Source: Megasphaera vaginalis (ex Bordigoni et al. 2020)
GTDB taxonomy: Bacteria; Bacillota; Negativicutes; Veillonellales; Megasphaeraceae
Length of the DNA: 64,000 nt
Assembly: GCF_900240295.1 (NCBI RefSeq)
Contig: NZ_OEQB01000005.1
Location: 62,001 to 126,000 of the forward strand
Reading direction: 5' to 3'
Part shown: positions 15,018 through 45,151 of the stretch, piece by piece
Layout: every line of letters starts with the position of its first letter
Numbering within the stretch: position 1 is the stretch's first letter
Notes under the pieces: generated by a model
Told to the model about the DNA's origin: nothing
Database searches by the model: none
What the model saw: only the letters and a program-made list of their open reading frames with translations
Position numbers and translations under genes: made by a program

Positions 15018-15582
15018 GCTTATCCTCTCTTCCTCTGTCAATGATGCGCAACGCCCCCGTTTCGGGATCCATGACGGCACCGTAAACGGTGACATAGTCC
15101 GGAAAATACGGCGATTGACGGAGACGCCGCACCGTTTCGGCAACGGCCCCTTCGACGCAATTGATCGAATCGGCCCATTTGACCAGTGACGGGCGAAGCT
15201 TGTCAAGCGCGGCCGCAGCCACACCGGCTGCAGCCATCTTTGCCAACAGGCTCGCCGCTGTTGTGGCGAGCATACCGCAGCCTTCATGACCGACGACGAT
15301 GATCGCTTCAACGCCCAATTCATAAACGGCAACGAGGAGACTCCCCATGACGCTGTCAAAGCCGTCGCCGACCGTATTGCCGGCAACCTTGACGATTTTT
15401 GCCTCGCCCCGGCGAATGCCCATCGCCGGCTCCAGAAGCTCGACAAGACGCGTATCCATGCAAGTTAGAATAACTACACGGCGCCGCGGCATCTTACCGA
15501 CTTTCCGCAGCGGCCGCTGTCCGCCGTCTCCGGCGAGAAACGCCGCATTGGCGGCTTCAATCTCCGCTAAAAGTTGTGCCAT
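15001..15582 (-). CDS. beta-class carbonic anhydrase
   Basis: The 193-residue enzyme interconverts CO2 and bicarbonate. Zinc ligands are C41, H99 and C102 (CMDTR and HEGCG), and D43 and R45 form the catalytic dyad. Other conserved parts are AKIVKVAGNTV and SLLVAVYELGVEAIIVVGH. It follows the GltD-like gene with nine bases between stop and start (AGGAGGCGGCT in front of the ATG) and runs into gmhA, making a three-gene operon with no obvious shared pathway. Supply of bicarbonate for biosynthesis is the likely role. Confidence 0.93.
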   Translation of the reverse strand: MAQLLAEIEAANAAFLAGDGGQRPLRKVGKMPRRRVVILTCMDTRLVELLEPAMGIRRGEAKIVKVAGNTVGDGFDSVMGSLLVAVYELGVEAIIVVGHEGCGMLATTAASLLAKMAAAGVAAAALDKLRPSLVKWADSINCVEGAVAETVRRLRQSPYFPDYVTVYGAVMDPETGALRIIDRGREDKHDDCK

Positions 15583-15591
15583 AGCCGCCTC

Positions 15592-16956
15592 CTACACCGA
15601 TTCCGCGCCGCTGTCCCGACGCTGCAAATAAGCGGCAATCCCAGCTGCCGCTTTCTTCCCTTCACGCATGGCGAGAACGACGGTCTGCGGCTTGTGAACG
15701 ATATCGCCGGCAGCAAAGACGCCGGGCCGGTCGGTCATGTTGGCATACGGTTCCGAAGACACGGCGATATATCCCTCATCGCTGGCATGGACGCCAAAAG
15801 TCCGTATCGCCGACAACTGCGGCCTGTTGCCGATAGCGGCGATTACCTTGTTGGCCTTAACGACGCCGAATTCACCGGTCGGCACCATCGTCGCATCTTC
15901 CAATATTTCTTGCCGCTCATATTGCAGGCCTTCGACGGTATCGACACCGATAATCGCCGTCGGATCCGAATAAAACTGGAAGTGAATGCCTTCTTCTTTG
16001 GCTTCCTCGTATTCGGACGGCAGGCACTTCATGTTTTTTTCTGCCCGCCGGTAAACGACAGTCACCTCGGCCTGAAGGCGCAAAGCCGTCCGCGCCGCAT
16101 CGATAGCCACATTGCCGGCACCGATGACCGCCACCGTATCGCCCTTCCGGATCGGAACATCGGCCAGCGTCGCTTCTCCCAACTGTACTTCCTGTACTTT
16201 TTGCAAAAACGACGCCGCGTCGACGACGCCGGGAATCGTGTAATTTTTCACGCCGAGCCCCCAGGAATCCATCGTGCCGACAGCAATGAAGACGGCGGCA
16301 AACCCGTCGGCAAAAAGATCGTCGATCGATTTGTCTTCGCCGATTTCCGTATTGTAAACGAAGGTGACGCCCAGCGCTTCCAAATGCGCCGCTTCCCGTA
16401 CGACAAATTCCTTATGCAGGCGAAAAGTCGGTATGCCGTAAAAAATCGTGCCGCCAGGCTGCGACGCCTGTTCGAACACGGTTACGCCGTACCCGGCTTT
16501 ACGCAAATCATACGCCGCCGCAAGTCCTGCGGGCCCGCTGCCGACAATCGCCACTGCAGCCGCAGCGGGATATTTTTTCTTCCCGTCGAGAAGTCCGTTA
16601 TCCAGAACCAGATCGGCGACAAATCGTTCCAATTTGCCGATCTGGATCGGCTTTTTAGCCCGATTCAGGACACATGCGCCTTCACACTGATTTTCACGGG
16701 GACACACCCGGCCGCAAATAGCGGGCAGATTGTTGCGATGATAAATGTATTCGGCAGCCGTGCCGAAATTCCCTTGTGCCAGAGCCTGAATAAACTGCGG
16801 TATTTCATTTTCGATAGGGCATCCCTGCCGGCACAGAGGCACCTTGCAATGTAAGCAACGCCTTGCTTCCGTTAATGCTTCCGGCAACGTATAATCCTGA
16901 TCGCGCATGATTTCGTCATGAAATGATGCCAACGGATTCGTAGATGTATCAGCCAT
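15592..16956 (-). CDS. GltD-like FAD/NAD(P)-dependent oxidoreductase with N-terminal iron-sulfur domain
   Basis: The 454-residue protein has the glutamate-synthase small-subunit architecture. An N-terminal 4Fe-4S domain carries CLHCKVPLCRQGCP and CGRVCPRENQCEGAC. An FAD-binding GSGPAGLAAAYDLRKAGY follows near residue 140, then a second nucleotide-binding fold (VIGAGNVAIDAARTALRL) and a C-terminal FAD contact GVFAAGDIV. It could act as GltD, or as the stand-alone GltA/SudA/NfnB-type enzyme. No GltB large subunit is adjacent, which favours the stand-alone reading. The start at 16956 is favoured by the spacing from AAAGGA; an ATG at 16962 is also possible. Its promoter overlaps the left 28-bp repeat. 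Confidence 0.87.
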   Translation of the reverse strand: MADTSTNPLASFHDEIMRDQDYTLPEALTEARRCLHCKVPLCRQGCPIENEIPQFIQALAQGNFGTAAEYIYHRNNLPAICGRVCPRENQCEGACVLNRAKKPIQIGKLERFVADLVLDNGLLDGKKKYPAAAAVAIVGSGPAGLAAAYDLRKAGYGVTVFEQASQPGGTIFYGIPTFRLHKEFVVREAAHLEALGVTFVYNTEIGEDKSIDDLFADGFAAVFIAVGTMDSWGLGVKNYTIPGVVDAASFLQKVQEVQLGEATLADVPIRKGDTVAVIGAGNVAIDAARTALRLQAEVTVVYRRAEKNMKCLPSEYEEAKEEGIHFQFYSDPTAIIGVDTVEGLQYERQEILEDATMVPTGEFGVVKANKVIAAIGNRPQLSAIRTFGVHASDEGYIAVSSEPYANMTDRPGVFAAGDIVHKPQTVVLAMREGKKAAAGIAAYLQRRDSGAESV

Positions 16957-17112
16957 TATCATTATATCCTTTCTTCGCCGTGCCGGTTTTAAGCGAAGGG
17001 AACGACTGCCGGTTTCCGGCCGCGCCTGCGCCGTCACAACGCGTGCAAAAGCCACCGCGGCCTGTCGGCACCCGTTCCCTTCGCCGGAAAGACACGGTAC
17101 CATATCTTCTTT

Positions 17113-17142
17113 ATCATATAGGTTAACACCGCATATAGTCAA
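17113..17142 (-). promoter_or_regulatory. promoter of the GltD-like gene, -35 inside the left 28-bp repeat
   Basis: TTGACT (17142-17137) with TATGAT (17118-17113, 18-base spacing) or TATATG (17120-17115, 16-base spacing) points toward the GltD-like gene on the minus strand. The -35 hexamer is the end of the 28-bp direct repeat. Confidence 0.5.
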
Positions 17143-17163
17143 GAATATTTCCGTATACGCGCC
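17136..17163 (+). repeat. 28-bp direct repeat, left copy
   Basis: The bases TAGTCAAGAATATTTCC followed by GTATACGCGCC are repeated without mismatch at 20698-20725, 3,562 bp away in the same orientation. Flanking bases differ immediately on both sides, so the identity is exactly 28 bp. The two copies bracket the adhesin gene. Confidence 0.95.
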
Positions 17164-18076
17164 ATTTACGCGTCTCCGTTGTCCGTTGTTCCTTGGGTTC
17201 CGCCGCCGCACCGTTTCTGGTCATCCCGTGACGCGCAATTTTCCGCCGGTACACGGTGAAAGCGAACTGCTTAAAACGCGCCCGGCAGACAACACCTTTC
17301 TCCGGCAGACGAAGTTTACTGCCTTGGCGTTTAGGCACTATCCTCGCGGGACCGACGTTTGCATAGCGTCTTTGCCGTTCGCCATAAAGGACGGAGAAGA
17401 GGACGGGCGTGATGGAAATCATGGGAAATACGGGGCAATTTGCATTTATTTATGATCTAAACTCATTTATATGCGATCTATTGCAAAAACAGTATCGGTA
17501 ATTTAAAAAAAAATGGGAAAACCTGTAATTTATAACAGGTCACAAATGCGACATATTTCTATACGATGGTAATAAAGAGATAGATGTTTTACGCAGGTGT
17601 TTTTCCGGGACAGCGAAAGGAGACGTGTATTTCCTTTCCCGTAAGGTAACCGTATCTTATGTTGTTTACGGAGAGGAGGCGTGTTATATGCAAAAGCACA
17701 GGAAACCAGCAGAAAAACAGCTCTTCAGGAAAAACCCGCAAAGGGAATAGCCGGCACGGGGAGCTCATCGCTGCGCTTGTACTGCCGACACTCTTTTCCG
17801 GAACCGGCAAAGGAACCGTCTGAACGGCGCCGGGAACCGTGAACAGAACGATGCGGCCAGCGCCGCAGAAGGCGCGTCTGCAATGTCGGCGCGACGGCGA
17901 AAACGAGGGGGACGCAAGCGCGACCTTCGCGTCGGATAAAGGGCAGGGCGTCCGAGTCAACACGCATGGGTGGCGGAAAAAGCAAGGCGCTGAGCAATGA
18001 AAACGCGGCTATGCAAAAAAAGGGGCCGCCAAAAATACGGAAATCGATACATAGGAAGATATGAGTAGGAGTCATC
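17164..18076 (+). pseudogene. long leader region with possible decayed adhesin fragment
   Basis: No intact gene is seen in these 913 bases. From about 17691 the plus strand begins ATG CAA AAG CAC with a ribosome-like GGAGAGGAGG upstream, but meets TAG after 20 codons. Other frames beyond it give alanine/glycine-rich stretches such as AASAAEGASAM and GDASATFASDKGQGV, similar in style to YadA head repeats. This suggests a broken earlier copy of the adhesin's 5' part. A perfect ACCTGT/ACAGGT inverted repeat lies at 17521-17540. Upstream of 17500 nothing is recognisable. Confidence 0.35.
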
Positions 18077-20437
18077 ATGACCAAGTATGGAAACACACAC
18101 AGAACCCTTTCCCTGCGCATTCTCTGCGTGCTGTTGTTAGGCACCTGCCTGTTGGGAGGACACGGCACGGTAAGCGCCATTGTTGACACCATGACTCCCA
18201 CTAATACTAATAAAAATATCAGCGTAAATACCAACAGCGGGTCGGTCGAACTCACCCTCAGCGGCTTAGCTACGGAGCCCTGGCAGACGGCCCTGGGAGA
18301 CGGCGCAGAGGCTACCGGGGGCCACGCTACCGCTATCGGAGCGGATGCAAAGGCCACAGCGCAGGGAAACACAGCCTTGGGAGACAATGCAAAGGCGGAG
18401 GGCACGAGCGCGGATGGCATGAGCGCTACGGCCATTGGCGCCGGCGCTTATGCAACCCGCGGAGGATCTTCTTTAGGGAATTACGCGTACGCCCGGGGAG
18501 ACAACAGTGTAGCTTTCGGATCTGGGGCAAAAACAGGGACAGAAAGCAGTCCCGCATCAGGAACGGAGGCCATCGCCATCGGCTACACGGCAAAGGCGCA
18601 GAAGAAATGGGCAATTGCCATCGGGAGCGGCGCAAACGCTGATGGAGAGAGCGCAACGGTTTTGGGATACAAGGCGAAAGCTAGTGGGAAGAATGCACTG
18701 GCGCTCGGATACAATGCGACAGCGAGTCTGGAGAACAGTGTGGCCATCGGCTACAATTCCTCGGTAGGCGCGGCGAATACCGTTTCCTTTGGCAGCTCTG
18801 GTGCGACCCGGCGCCTGATGTATGTGTCTGCCGGCGAATCTGATACGGATGCGGCTAATTTTGGACAGTTAATAAGATCCGCCGGTTTAAGCGGCAGCAA
18901 ATTACAATTTTACACGCAGGCGGCAAACAAAGCTTTTGAGGTAGATCTATCTTCACTGTCAGGCGCCGGCGGAGCAGTCATTGGTGGCGGCAGCGTCGCC
19001 TATACTGCGACCGGAAACGGCACCCTGAAGCTGAAGAACGGCGTCGGAAGCACCATCGCGTCCATTGCGGGCTTTACGGATAAATACACTACAGGCGTTG
19101 AACTGGTGGGAAACACGGTCACCTTCACCCGTAATGACGGCGGCACCTACAGCTTCGAGCTGCCTGCTTCCGCAGGCAGCGGCGGTATGGCTTCTCTGAA
19201 GTTTGCCGGGGACGACGGGCCGGTAATTACGAAAACGGATGGGCAGAAGATGGACATCCTCGGCGGTGCTGCACCGGCCGCCTTGTCAGAGAACAATATC
19301 GGAGTGGCGTCGGAAGACGGCGCCTTGAAAGTCAAGCTCGCCAAGGACATTCAGGGCATTTCCAGCCTCACCACCGAGAGCGGCGTGAAAATTGATGCCG
19401 CCGGACTCCATGCAGGGAATAAGAAAGTTACGGGAGTCGCAGACGGAACCGCCGATAGCGATGCCGTAAACTTTAAGCAGTTGAAAAATCTGGATAAGAA
19501 AATGACTGGCAATACTAACGCCATCGCCGCCAATAAAGCCGATATTGCCGCCAATAAAGCAGCCATCAACAGCATTAAAACGCAAGACGGCGTAGTTGCT
19601 CCCGCGGGAACGGCGAAAGCAACGGAATTTGTGAAAGGAACCACTGTCTATGATTATCTCCACGGCAATACCATTTCCCTGGGCAAAGACAGCGCGGCGA
19701 CAGGCATGAATTCCATCGCCATCGGCTTCGGCAATCAAGTAACCGGCAAGGGAAGCGGCGCCTTCGGCGATCCCACTACGATCACCGGCAATGGCAGCTA
19801 TTCGGTAGGAAACGGTAACACGATCAGCGGTGACAATACTTTCGTACTGGGTAGTAATGTGAATACCTCCGCCAAGAACGCCGTCGTTCTCGGGAATAAT
19901 TCCGAAGGCGCGGACAACGCCGTATCTGTCGGCGCGAAAGGAAGCGAACGGCAAATCAAGAACGTGGCGGACGGCACTGCCGACTCGGATGCCGTAACCG
20001 TACGCCAGTTAAATAAAGCCGCAGGGTTTGACGTGAATACCATCGACGCCGATTTGAAAGCCGCCAATAACCACATCAGCAGCCTGGACAACCGACTCAG
20101 CAAAGTAGGCGCAGGAGCCGCCGCGCTGGCAGCTCTCCATCCGATGGATCTGACAGACGACAAGTGGAGCGTGGCAGCCGGCCTGGGCCACTACAAGAAT
20201 GCGAATGCGGCAGCCGTAGGCCTGTTCTACCGTCCCAGTGAAGCCGTCCTCCTGAGCGTGGGAGGAGCCTTCGGCGGCGGAGAAAACATGCTGAACGCCG
20301 GCGTCAGCGTAGCCGTAGGAAGCGGCACGGTGAAAGGCACAAGCGGAACGATGGCCAAACGGGTGGCCGATTTGGAAGCGGACAACGAAAATCTGCGGCG
20401 AGAGTTGGAAGAAATCAAAGCGATGCTGAAGAAATAA
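18077..20437 (+). CDS. YadA-like trimeric autotransporter adhesin
   Basis: The 786-residue protein begins with an export signal (hydrophobic core at residues about 13-27, probable cleavage after VSA34). YadA-type head repeats at about 70-250 follow in short units such as ATAIGADAKA, SVAFGSGAK and ALALGYNATA, then a neck. The stalk region is beta-rich and coiled, a second set of head repeats lies near 540-620, and a final neck (ADGTADSDAVTVRQLNKA) precedes a membrane anchor at about 695-757. It would form a homotrimeric outer-membrane adhesin. Unusually, the anchor does not end the protein: 28 residues with perfect V/L/N/L/L/I/L heptads follow. The gene lies between two 28-bp direct repeats. 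Confidence 0.92.
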   Translation: MTKYGNTHRTLSLRILCVLLLGTCLLGGHGTVSAIVDTMTPTNTNKNISVNTNSGSVELTLSGLATEPWQTALGDGAEATGGHATAIGADAKATAQGNTALGDNAKAEGTSADGMSATAIGAGAYATRGGSSLGNYAYARGDNSVAFGSGAKTGTESSPASGTEAIAIGYTAKAQKKWAIAIGSGANADGESATVLGYKAKASGKNALALGYNATASLENSVAIGYNSSVGAANTVSFGSSGATRRLMYVSAGESDTDAANFGQLIRSAGLSGSKLQFYTQAANKAFEVDLSSLSGAGGAVIGGGSVAYTATGNGTLKLKNGVGSTIASIAGFTDKYTTGVELVGNTVTFTRNDGGTYSFELPASAGSGGMASLKFAGDDGPVITKTDGQKMDILGGAAPAALSENNIGVASEDGALKVKLAKDIQGISSLTTESGVKIDAAGLHAGNKKVTGVADGTADSDAVNFKQLKNLDKKMTGNTNAIAANKADIAANKAAINSIKTQDGVVAPAGTAKATEFVKGTTVYDYLHGNTISLGKDSAATGMNSIAIGFGNQVTGKGSGAFGDPTTITGNGSYSVGNGNTISGDNTFVLGSNVNTSAKNAVVLGNNSEGADNAVSVGAKGSERQIKNVADGTADSDAVTVRQLNKAAGFDVNTIDADLKAANNHISSLDNRLSKVGAGAAALAALHPMDLTDDKWSVAAGLGHYKNANAAAVGLFYRPSEAVLLSVGGAFGGGENMLNAGVSVAVGSGTVKGTSGTMAKRVADLEADNENLRRELEEIKAMLKK

Positions 20438-20520
20438 GAATCTATTTGCAGAAGAAAAAAAGGGGCAAAGCCTCTGATCTGCACCTGTTTCATTGAACGA
20501 ATTATGTAAACGATTCCTCG

Positions 20521-20557
20521 GGCCTGCGTTCGATATGCTATCGGACGCAGGCCTTTT
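20521..20557 (+). terminator. intrinsic terminator after the adhesin gene
   Basis: A long stem (GGCCTGCGT...ACGCAGGCC with CGATA/TATCG continuing inward) is followed by TTTT. It lies 84 bases past the adhesin stop codon. Confidence 0.75.
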
Positions 20558-20697
20558 CGGCCGCCCGAGCGCAATGACGATATCCGCTTGCCGTCAGGCA
20601 CGCCGGTCATGGCTTTATCCGCCAACGGAGATAGGGCCGCACGGAAGCCGGAGATTTCTTCACGCGGAATGCTTGCTTTCATAGGCAGTACCGCTCC

Positions 20698-20725
20698 TAG
20701 TCAAGAATATTTCCGTATACGCGCC
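20698..20725 (+). repeat. 28-bp direct repeat, right copy
   Basis: This is an exact copy of 17136-17163. Just below it on the minus strand, AGGAGCGG and an ATG at 20682 open about 45 codons (MKASIPREEISGFRAALS...) that do not continue into recognised protein, a possible remnant gene start inside the bracketed segment. Confidence 0.95.
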
Positions 20726-20801: not shown

Positions 20802-20856
20802 TTGCTATTTTGCTGAATTTCCCTATAATAAAAAGTATATGAAATTACTATACTTT
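20802..20856 (+). promoter_or_regulatory. promoter and operator-like palindrome for the flavodoxin lipoprotein operon
   Basis: TTGCTA (20802-20807) and TATAAT (20824-20829) are spaced by 16 bases. Immediately downstream, AAAGTATA (20832-20839) and TATACTTT (20849-20856) form a perfect inverted repeat covering the expected transcription start, the usual site of a repressor operator. Confidence 0.6.
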
Positions 20857-20881: not shown

Positions 20882-21481
20882 ATGCGTAAATTACTCGTAT
20901 TCGCCTTTTCCCTTTGCCTGCTGGTCCTTTTCGCCGGCTGTGGCAATAACGAGGGGCAGCAAAAGCAGGCGGCAAATGACGTTCCGCTGCAGGGCAAAAC
21001 ATTGGTCGTCTATTTTTCCAACACCGGTCATACGAAAGCGTTGGCTGAGAAAGCTGCCGAAATTCTGCATGCCGACACGTACGAAATCCAGCCGGAAATT
21101 CCTTATACGGCAGAAGATCTCGACTACAACGACGAATCGCATCGCGCGACGAAAGAACAGCGCGATGATACGTTCCGCCCGGCAATAAAAAGCCCAAAAA
21201 TCGACAATTTCGCGCAGTACAAGAATATTGTCTTAGCTTACCCGATTTGGTGGGAACAGGCGCCGCGCATCGTAGACGCTTTTGTTGAAAGCTATGACTG
21301 GTCGGACAAAACCATCATTCCCATGTCAACTTCAGAAGGCAGTGAAATCGGGACAAGCGCGGATTATTTGAAGACGTTGGCTAAGGACAAAGGCACTTGG
21401 AAAGCCGGCAAAAACTTCGGCGACGGTTCCGTCAGCAAAGAAGATCTGGCCAAATGGCTGGCTGAAACGACAGCCAAATAA
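20882..21481 (+). CDS. flavodoxin-like lipoprotein
   Basis: The 199-residue protein has a lipoprotein signal ending LVLFAGC (Cys 20) and then a flavodoxin fold. The FMN phosphate loop VVYFSNTGHTKALAEKAA, a YPIWWEQAPRIVDAFVESYDW segment and the MSTSEGSEIGTS loop match the flavodoxin_4 group. It would be an FMN protein anchored outside the cytoplasm. AAGGAG precedes the start. The next gene, a DUF4405 membrane protein, follows after 11 bases, suggesting a membrane-to-flavodoxin electron path. The redox partner is unknown. Confidence 0.88.
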   Translation: MRKLLVFAFSLCLLVLFAGCGNNEGQQKQAANDVPLQGKTLVVYFSNTGHTKALAEKAAEILHADTYEIQPEIPYTAEDLDYNDESHRATKEQRDDTFRPAIKSPKIDNFAQYKNIVLAYPIWWEQAPRIVDAFVESYDWSDKTIIPMSTSEGSEIGTSADYLKTLAKDKGTWKAGKNFGDGSVSKEDLAKWLAETTAK

Positions 21482-22188: not shown

Positions 22189-22233
22189 GCGAAAGACCGG
22201 CGATCGGTAAAATACCGATCGCCGGTCTTTCGC
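22189..22233 (+). terminator. hairpin terminator with perfect 20-bp arms
   Basis: GCGAAAGACCGGCGATCGGT (22189-22208) and its exact complement (22214-22233) enclose an AAAAT loop, 33 bases past the DUF4405 stop. Only TTT lies within the second arm, so it is a strong hairpin with a short T-run. Confidence 0.7.
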
Positions 22234-45074: not shown

Positions 45075-45151
45075 TGGTGCGCCCAGAGGGAATCGAACCC
45101 ACGACACATGGTTTAGGAAACCACCGCTCTATCCTACTGAGCTATGGACGC
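45075..45151 (-). tRNA. tRNA-Arg (anticodon CCT)
   Basis: The 77-base minus-strand sequence folds as a tRNA. The acceptor stem GCGTCCA pairs with TGGGCGC, a D-arm with AGCTCAGTAGGATAGAGC follows, and the anticodon stem GTGGT/ACCAT has loop TTCCTAA (anticodon CCT, reading AGG). The T-arm is GTGGG-TTCGATT-CCCTC-like with the invariant TTCGA. The 3' CCA is encoded. It is flanked by its own terminator. Confidence 0.93.

Follow-up and report, generated by a model that had tools for sequence, protein, structure and literature searches.

Perfect 28-bp direct repeats around a YadA-type adhesin gene of Megasphaera vaginalis, most likely an insertion scar

Gene content of the adhesin locus

The window analyzed here, a stretch of 64,000 nucleotides from Megasphaera vaginalis, carries an intact gene for a YadA-type trimeric autotransporter adhesin of 786 amino acids (positions 18077 to 20437, plus strand), recognized by the Pfam families YadA_head, YadA_stalk, and YadA_anchor and by NCBIfam. 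The head, the stalk, and the C-terminal anchor lie in a single open frame (Pfam E-values of 7e-22, 9e-16, and 9.7e-10, respectively), and the layout of the protein is a signal peptide, head repeats, a coiled stalk, the membrane anchor, and a short C-terminal coiled coil. The signal peptide, YadA head, stalk, and anchor are shared with YadA-family adhesins of other Negativicutes, such as that of Veillonella parvula. Unlike other adhesins of this genome, the protein starts without an extended signal peptide region and, unlike the giant adhesin of contig C3 (2,974 amino acids; L138:6317-15241), which has an SLH-like C terminus after the anchor, it ends in a short coiled coil.

Two 28-bp sequences enclose the gene, at 17136 to 17163 on the left and at 20698 to 20725 on the right (plus strand; TAGTCAAGAATATTTCCGTATACGCGCC in both cases). 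Between them lie about 900 bp of left-hand sequence, the adhesin gene, a strong terminator-like hairpin, and about 140 bp of right-hand sequence. The hairpin, which has a 15-pair stem and is followed by a run of T, is located 3′ of the adhesin gene (20521 to 20553, plus strand), and the folding of the region from 20430 to 20560 had a z-score of −4.0, a value reached by none of 200 shuffles. The left inner part (17164 to 18076) is composed of an AT-rich stretch and of frame-broken sequence, has no family match, and gave no DNA match in congeners. The initial annotation had the repeats flanking the adhesin together with a decayed fragment. The adhesin is there and intact; the fragment (about 17690 to 18060) is frame-broken DNA whose identity is unproven, as it matched nothing in Pfam, in NCBIfam, in tblastn searches, or in the relatives examined. 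In the right inner part, a 41-codon open stretch beginning with MKASIPREEISGF (20560 to 20682, minus strand) was negative in the homolog search. It was rejected as a gene remnant: the hits in other genomes were weak, and those inspected lay antisense to argS, with one antisense to a mutY-like gene, which is coincidence. The absence of an integrase or transposase noted previously was borne out both for the insert and for the neighboring genes, and inverted repeats at the ends of the insert did not exceed those of shuffled sequences.

The left flank is occupied by a gene for a GltD-like NAD(P)-binding oxidoreductase of 456 amino acids (15592 to 16962, minus strand; Fer4_20 and Pyr_redox_2), and the right flank by a gene for a lipoprotein-like flavodoxin of 199 amino acids (20882 to 21481, plus strand; Flavodoxin_4, found by Pfam and NCBIfam). 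A sigma-70-like promoter, TTGACT-18-TATGAT, precedes the GltD-like gene (17113 to 17142, minus strand) and agrees with the consensus at 10 of 12 positions. Its −35 element, TTGACT (17142 to 17137, minus strand), is within the left repeat copy, as the initial annotation had claimed, and its −10 element, TATGAT (17118 to 17113), is outside the repeat, beyond the 18-bp spacer. For the flavodoxin gene, a sequence match points to a sigma-70-like promoter site, TTGCTA-16-TATAAT (20802 to 20829, plus strand), whose −35-like hexamer begins 76 bp after the end of the right repeat copy. When the insert and one repeat copy are removed from the sequence, what remains is a divergent intergenic region of 357 bp with both promoters intact.

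Two structures were observed near these genes. The leader of the GltD-like gene (16960 to 17107, minus strand) folds into a very long hairpin (minimum free energy of −70.9 kcal/mol; z-score of −4.2; 0 of 200 shuffles) for which Rfam held no matching family. This leader is located between the promoter and the gene, the place taken by tRNA-Arg(CCT) in most congeners. On the other side of the locus, a perfect 21-bp inverted repeat with a 3-nt loop (22189 to 22233), 3′ of a DUF4405 gene, is probably a terminator.

The composition of the segment resembles that of its surroundings. The third-position skew (−0.25) and GC3 (0.63) of the adhesin gene are the same as those of the neighboring genes, and the tetranucleotide makeup of the segment is ordinary, with 33 of 211 windows deviating as much or more; therefore, the insert is not obviously recent or foreign. 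By these measures nothing marks it as such, though the repeats are still identical, and the adhesin segment would either be a long-time resident or have come from a close relative. Searches for similar DNA on phages and plasmids were negative, as were searches of viral contigs for the exact flanks and for close relatives of the adhesin, and the YadA proteins of plasmids are distant from this adhesin (less than 60% identity). The most atypical tetranucleotide composition and the strongest GC skew (−0.24) of contig C5 were found at 185000 to 197000 (L061).

A repeat found twice in the genome

The two copies are identical at 28 of 28 positions, have the same (direct) orientation, and start 3,562 bp apart; on all these points, and on their positions, the initial annotation was exact. 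Such a repeat appeared in none of 100 shuffles of the window, and the base composition predicts about 4e-7 exact 28-bp pairs by chance for the whole contig. Base rates for exact direct repeats were obtained from three contigs of this genome, amounting to 887 kb. In the 214-kb contig that holds the locus, the 28-bp pair is the sole exact direct repeat of at least 20 bp and is therefore not a product of chance. The two further contigs (673 kb) contained such repeats at distances of up to 15 kb; most of these were paralogous-looking sequences with a constant offset, and others formed part of one intergenic repeat array. Against this background, the 28-bp pair is clearly exceptional.

Allowing up to three mismatches, the 28-mer has exactly two copies in the genome (2.2 Mb in 17 contigs) and is absent from 60 other genomes of the order. 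The possibility that it is an ordinary, widespread genomic repeat was thereby discarded. Flanking repeats are not a general trait of the adhesin genes of this genome either, since the adhesin loci of contigs C2 and C4 have none. The giant adhesin gene of contig C3 is bordered on either side by an intergenic repeat array (L138:4600-6300 and 15530-15930), which is a different repeat from the 28-mer and is adjoined by an IS200-like transposase gene (L138:4038-4496). The match between the two copies continues weakly over 8 bp to the left (ACCGCATA and ACCGCTCC; 92% over 36 nt), and local alignment of the flank revealed no significant extension in that direction. The left copy forms a modest hairpin (z-score of −1.9), and the right copy forms none.

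The location of the copies raises the question of a regulatory role, in which the 28-mer would serve as an operator or as an element upstream of a promoter, with selection preserving its identity ahead of two redox genes, those of the GltD-like protein and the flavodoxin. We consider this quite unlikely. The overlap of the left copy with a −35 element, the proximity of the right copy to the −35-like hexamer of the flavodoxin gene, and the palindromic cores of the 28-mer (AATATT and the 8-bp CGTATACG) are compatible with such a role, but the copies sit at differing positions relative to the two promoters, and no third copy exists genome-wide even with three mismatches. Moreover, partial matches in the 887 kb were only slightly more numerous than those of shuffled 28-mers and formed no family of related sites, and operators rarely need 28 identical bases.

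Possible recombination at the repeats

The repeats might instead be the products of site-specific recombination, as attL and attR of an integrative element or as dif-like Xer sites, with an integrase of the element's own that was lost or never present. This explanation appears unlikely. The 28-mer has the length of dif (28 bp; PMC5357621) and contains the 8-bp palindrome mentioned above. On the minus strand, its first 11 bp match the XerC arm of Escherichia coli at 8 of 11 positions and the XerD arm at 3 of 11, a lopsidedness resembling that described for some phages that integrate via Xer (PMC5357621). The whole-site match to E. coli dif is nevertheless slight, with a shuffle P of 0.017 for the best among four comparisons and of about 0.07 once corrected. 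The dif site of Bacillus subtilis gave nothing, with at most 4 of 11 positions per arm; the dif sequences of these two species served as yardsticks. A dif site is expected to be conserved among congeners, from which the 28-mer is absent; consensus scans of 15 congeneric genomes yielded no conserved dif site. The GC skew is negative across the whole 214-kb contig, and the locus is thus not terminus-like. With a weak alignment, no XerD arm, no skew switch of a terminus, and no counterpart in congeners, the 28-mer was rejected as dif.

The recombinases encoded in this genome may also weigh against site-specific integration. The matches to PF00589 look like integrases of phages or other elements and are all on other contigs, with no XerC- or XerD-like protein apparent in this draft assembly. 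The target is not a tRNA gene, and the nearest tRNA is 24 kb from the repeats. An integrase-borne genomic island was accordingly dismissed, there being no integrase in the insert or its neighbors and no attachment to a tRNA. The segment resembles the IMEX elements found at dif, such as the TLC phage, in its 28-bp direct repeats, in lacking its own integrase, and in its partial likeness to the XerC arm. It differs from them in that the XerD arm is missing, nothing suggests a terminus, no host XerC/D was found, and the site is not shared by congeners. Within this genome, which is 99% complete, the PF00589 matches are located on contigs C1, C6, and C7 (L106-L109). In a further scenario, which we judge very improbable, the adhesin would be a recombinase-less cassette that leaves and reenters its 28-bp site by means of a host recombinase not previously associated with sites of this kind, for example the orphan-looking tyrosine recombinase of contig C7, giving reversible variation of adhesion in a diderm Firmicute.

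Homologous recombination between the copies could also act as an excision switch that removes the adhesin in some cells, with phase-like loss of adhesion. The geometry is suited to a clean deletion in which the GltD-like promoter is retained, and there is a precedent in the wzy locus of Salmonella Typhimurium, where 113-bp repeats enclose a 2.6-kb segment (PMC12074656). The same source quotes minimal homologies of 23 to 27 bp for the RecA/RecBC pathway and of 44 to 90 bp for the RecF pathway and states that wider spacing of the repeats lowers the rate of recombination. The 28-bp repeats are at the threshold of the former and below that of the latter, the distance between them would further reduce the rate, no recombinase was found nearby, and a lost segment has no apparent route back. 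We thus doubt the existence of such a switch and give it a low probability. Since 28 bp is near the quoted minimum, the repeats permit occasional deletion but hardly constitute a switch, and phase-like variation is not supported.

The comparison with the wzy locus of strains DT8/DT30 is instructive. Both cases involve a single gene for a surface structure, in a segment of 2.6 to 3.6 kb between perfect direct repeats, with no recombinase assigned and with a deletion that leaves one repeat copy. At wzy, excision is reversible and the repeats measure 113 bp; those of the adhesin locus are four times shorter, near the RecA minimum, and known from sequence alone. Active repeats would offer a simple way of losing a surface adhesin with the neighboring promoter unharmed, which the evidence does not favor.

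Probable insertion with target duplication and comparison with congeners

The repeat pair is real and specific and is most likely an ordinary insertion scar, not a working on/off switch. With moderate confidence, we interpret the 28-bp repeats as the scar of one past insertion accompanied by a 28-bp target duplication. A piece of about 3.5 kb, carrying the gene for the YadA-type adhesin along with decayed DNA, would have inserted where the promoters of the GltD-like gene and the flavodoxin gene diverge; the 28-bp target sequence would have come to lie on either side of it, through staggered breakage or through repair-associated copying. As the duplicated target would comprise the −35 element of the GltD-like promoter and the part upstream of it, this promoter would have stayed intact, and that of the flavodoxin gene would have been untouched. 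Both flanking promoters being spared, the insertion would therefore have been tolerated. The repeats would afterwards persist as a passive scar, between which RecA-dependent or slippage recombination may occasionally delete the adhesin precisely and leave one copy, in a rare and one-way event. From this anatomy we infer an ancestral empty site with one copy, a mechanism of the repair type, and a potential for deletion.

An insertion scar fits the unique and perfect repeats, the self-contained insert, and the preservation of both promoters with one copy. The repeat itself is target-like, with only two copies in the genome and none in 60 other genomes of the order, and the insert has no inverted repeats at its ends. 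Of the two interpretations offered by the initial annotation, the insertion scar agrees with this anatomy and phase-like variation does not hold, given repeats near the RecA minimum, no recombinase in the vicinity, and no route back. In the same way, the proposal that the segment could be gained or lost cleanly is correct for the geometry, which keeps the GltD-like promoter, whereas any loss would be rare and in one direction.

Insertion with long target duplication has been reported in Helicobacter pylori (Nobusato 2000, as described in PMC1643837 and PMC3031569). As in that case, which concerns restriction-modification genes, the segment has no recombinase of its own, is located between otherwise ordinary genes, and is bounded by perfect direct copies of a sequence that exceeds the usual target duplications of transposons in length. 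The cargo here is an adhesin instead of a restriction-modification system; the H. pylori class was defined by comparison with empty-site strains, whereas the present likeness comes from the anatomy of a single genome. If the repeats are an insertion scar, the adhesin would join the kinds of genes that arrive with long target duplication, and the locus would provide a clean, PCR-testable marker for the presence or absence of an adhesion gene in this lineage.

The GltD-like gene is found in 11 congeners with 60 to 67% protein identity, in none of them adjoined by the gene of a closely related adhesin. Congeners have neither a syntenic equivalent of the flavodoxin gene nor the gltD-flavodoxin junction, and a scan of genome contigs for the flavodoxin retrieved distant flavodoxins only. 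Judging from gene order, the gltD-flavodoxin neighborhood is specific to this lineage, because no congener has this flavodoxin or a close adhesin relative beside the GltD-like gene. As counterpoints to the insertion scar, no empty site was seen among the congeners, and their lack of a syntenic flavodoxin means that the gltD-flavodoxin arrangement is not shown to be the ancestral state.

In 9 of the 11 congeners, tRNA-Arg(CCT) is found immediately upstream of the GltD-like gene, whereas in this genome the tRNA (45075 to 45151, minus strand) is 28 kb distant, a displacement that indicates, on the basis of synteny, a lineage-specific rearrangement. The repeat could then be a junction duplication left by the separation of the two genes rather than by insertion of the adhesin. 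We find this improbable, as the repeat brackets the adhesin segment only and the intervening DNA is ordinary (genes for CoA transferase, acyl-CoA dehydratase-type subunits, a peptidase, and further metabolic functions). A distinct YadA adhesin gene (L072:14095-16494) lies immediately upstream of tRNA-Arg and the GltD-like gene in one congener, oriented oppositely to that of the window. Adhesins may have landed beside the GltD-like gene at least twice.
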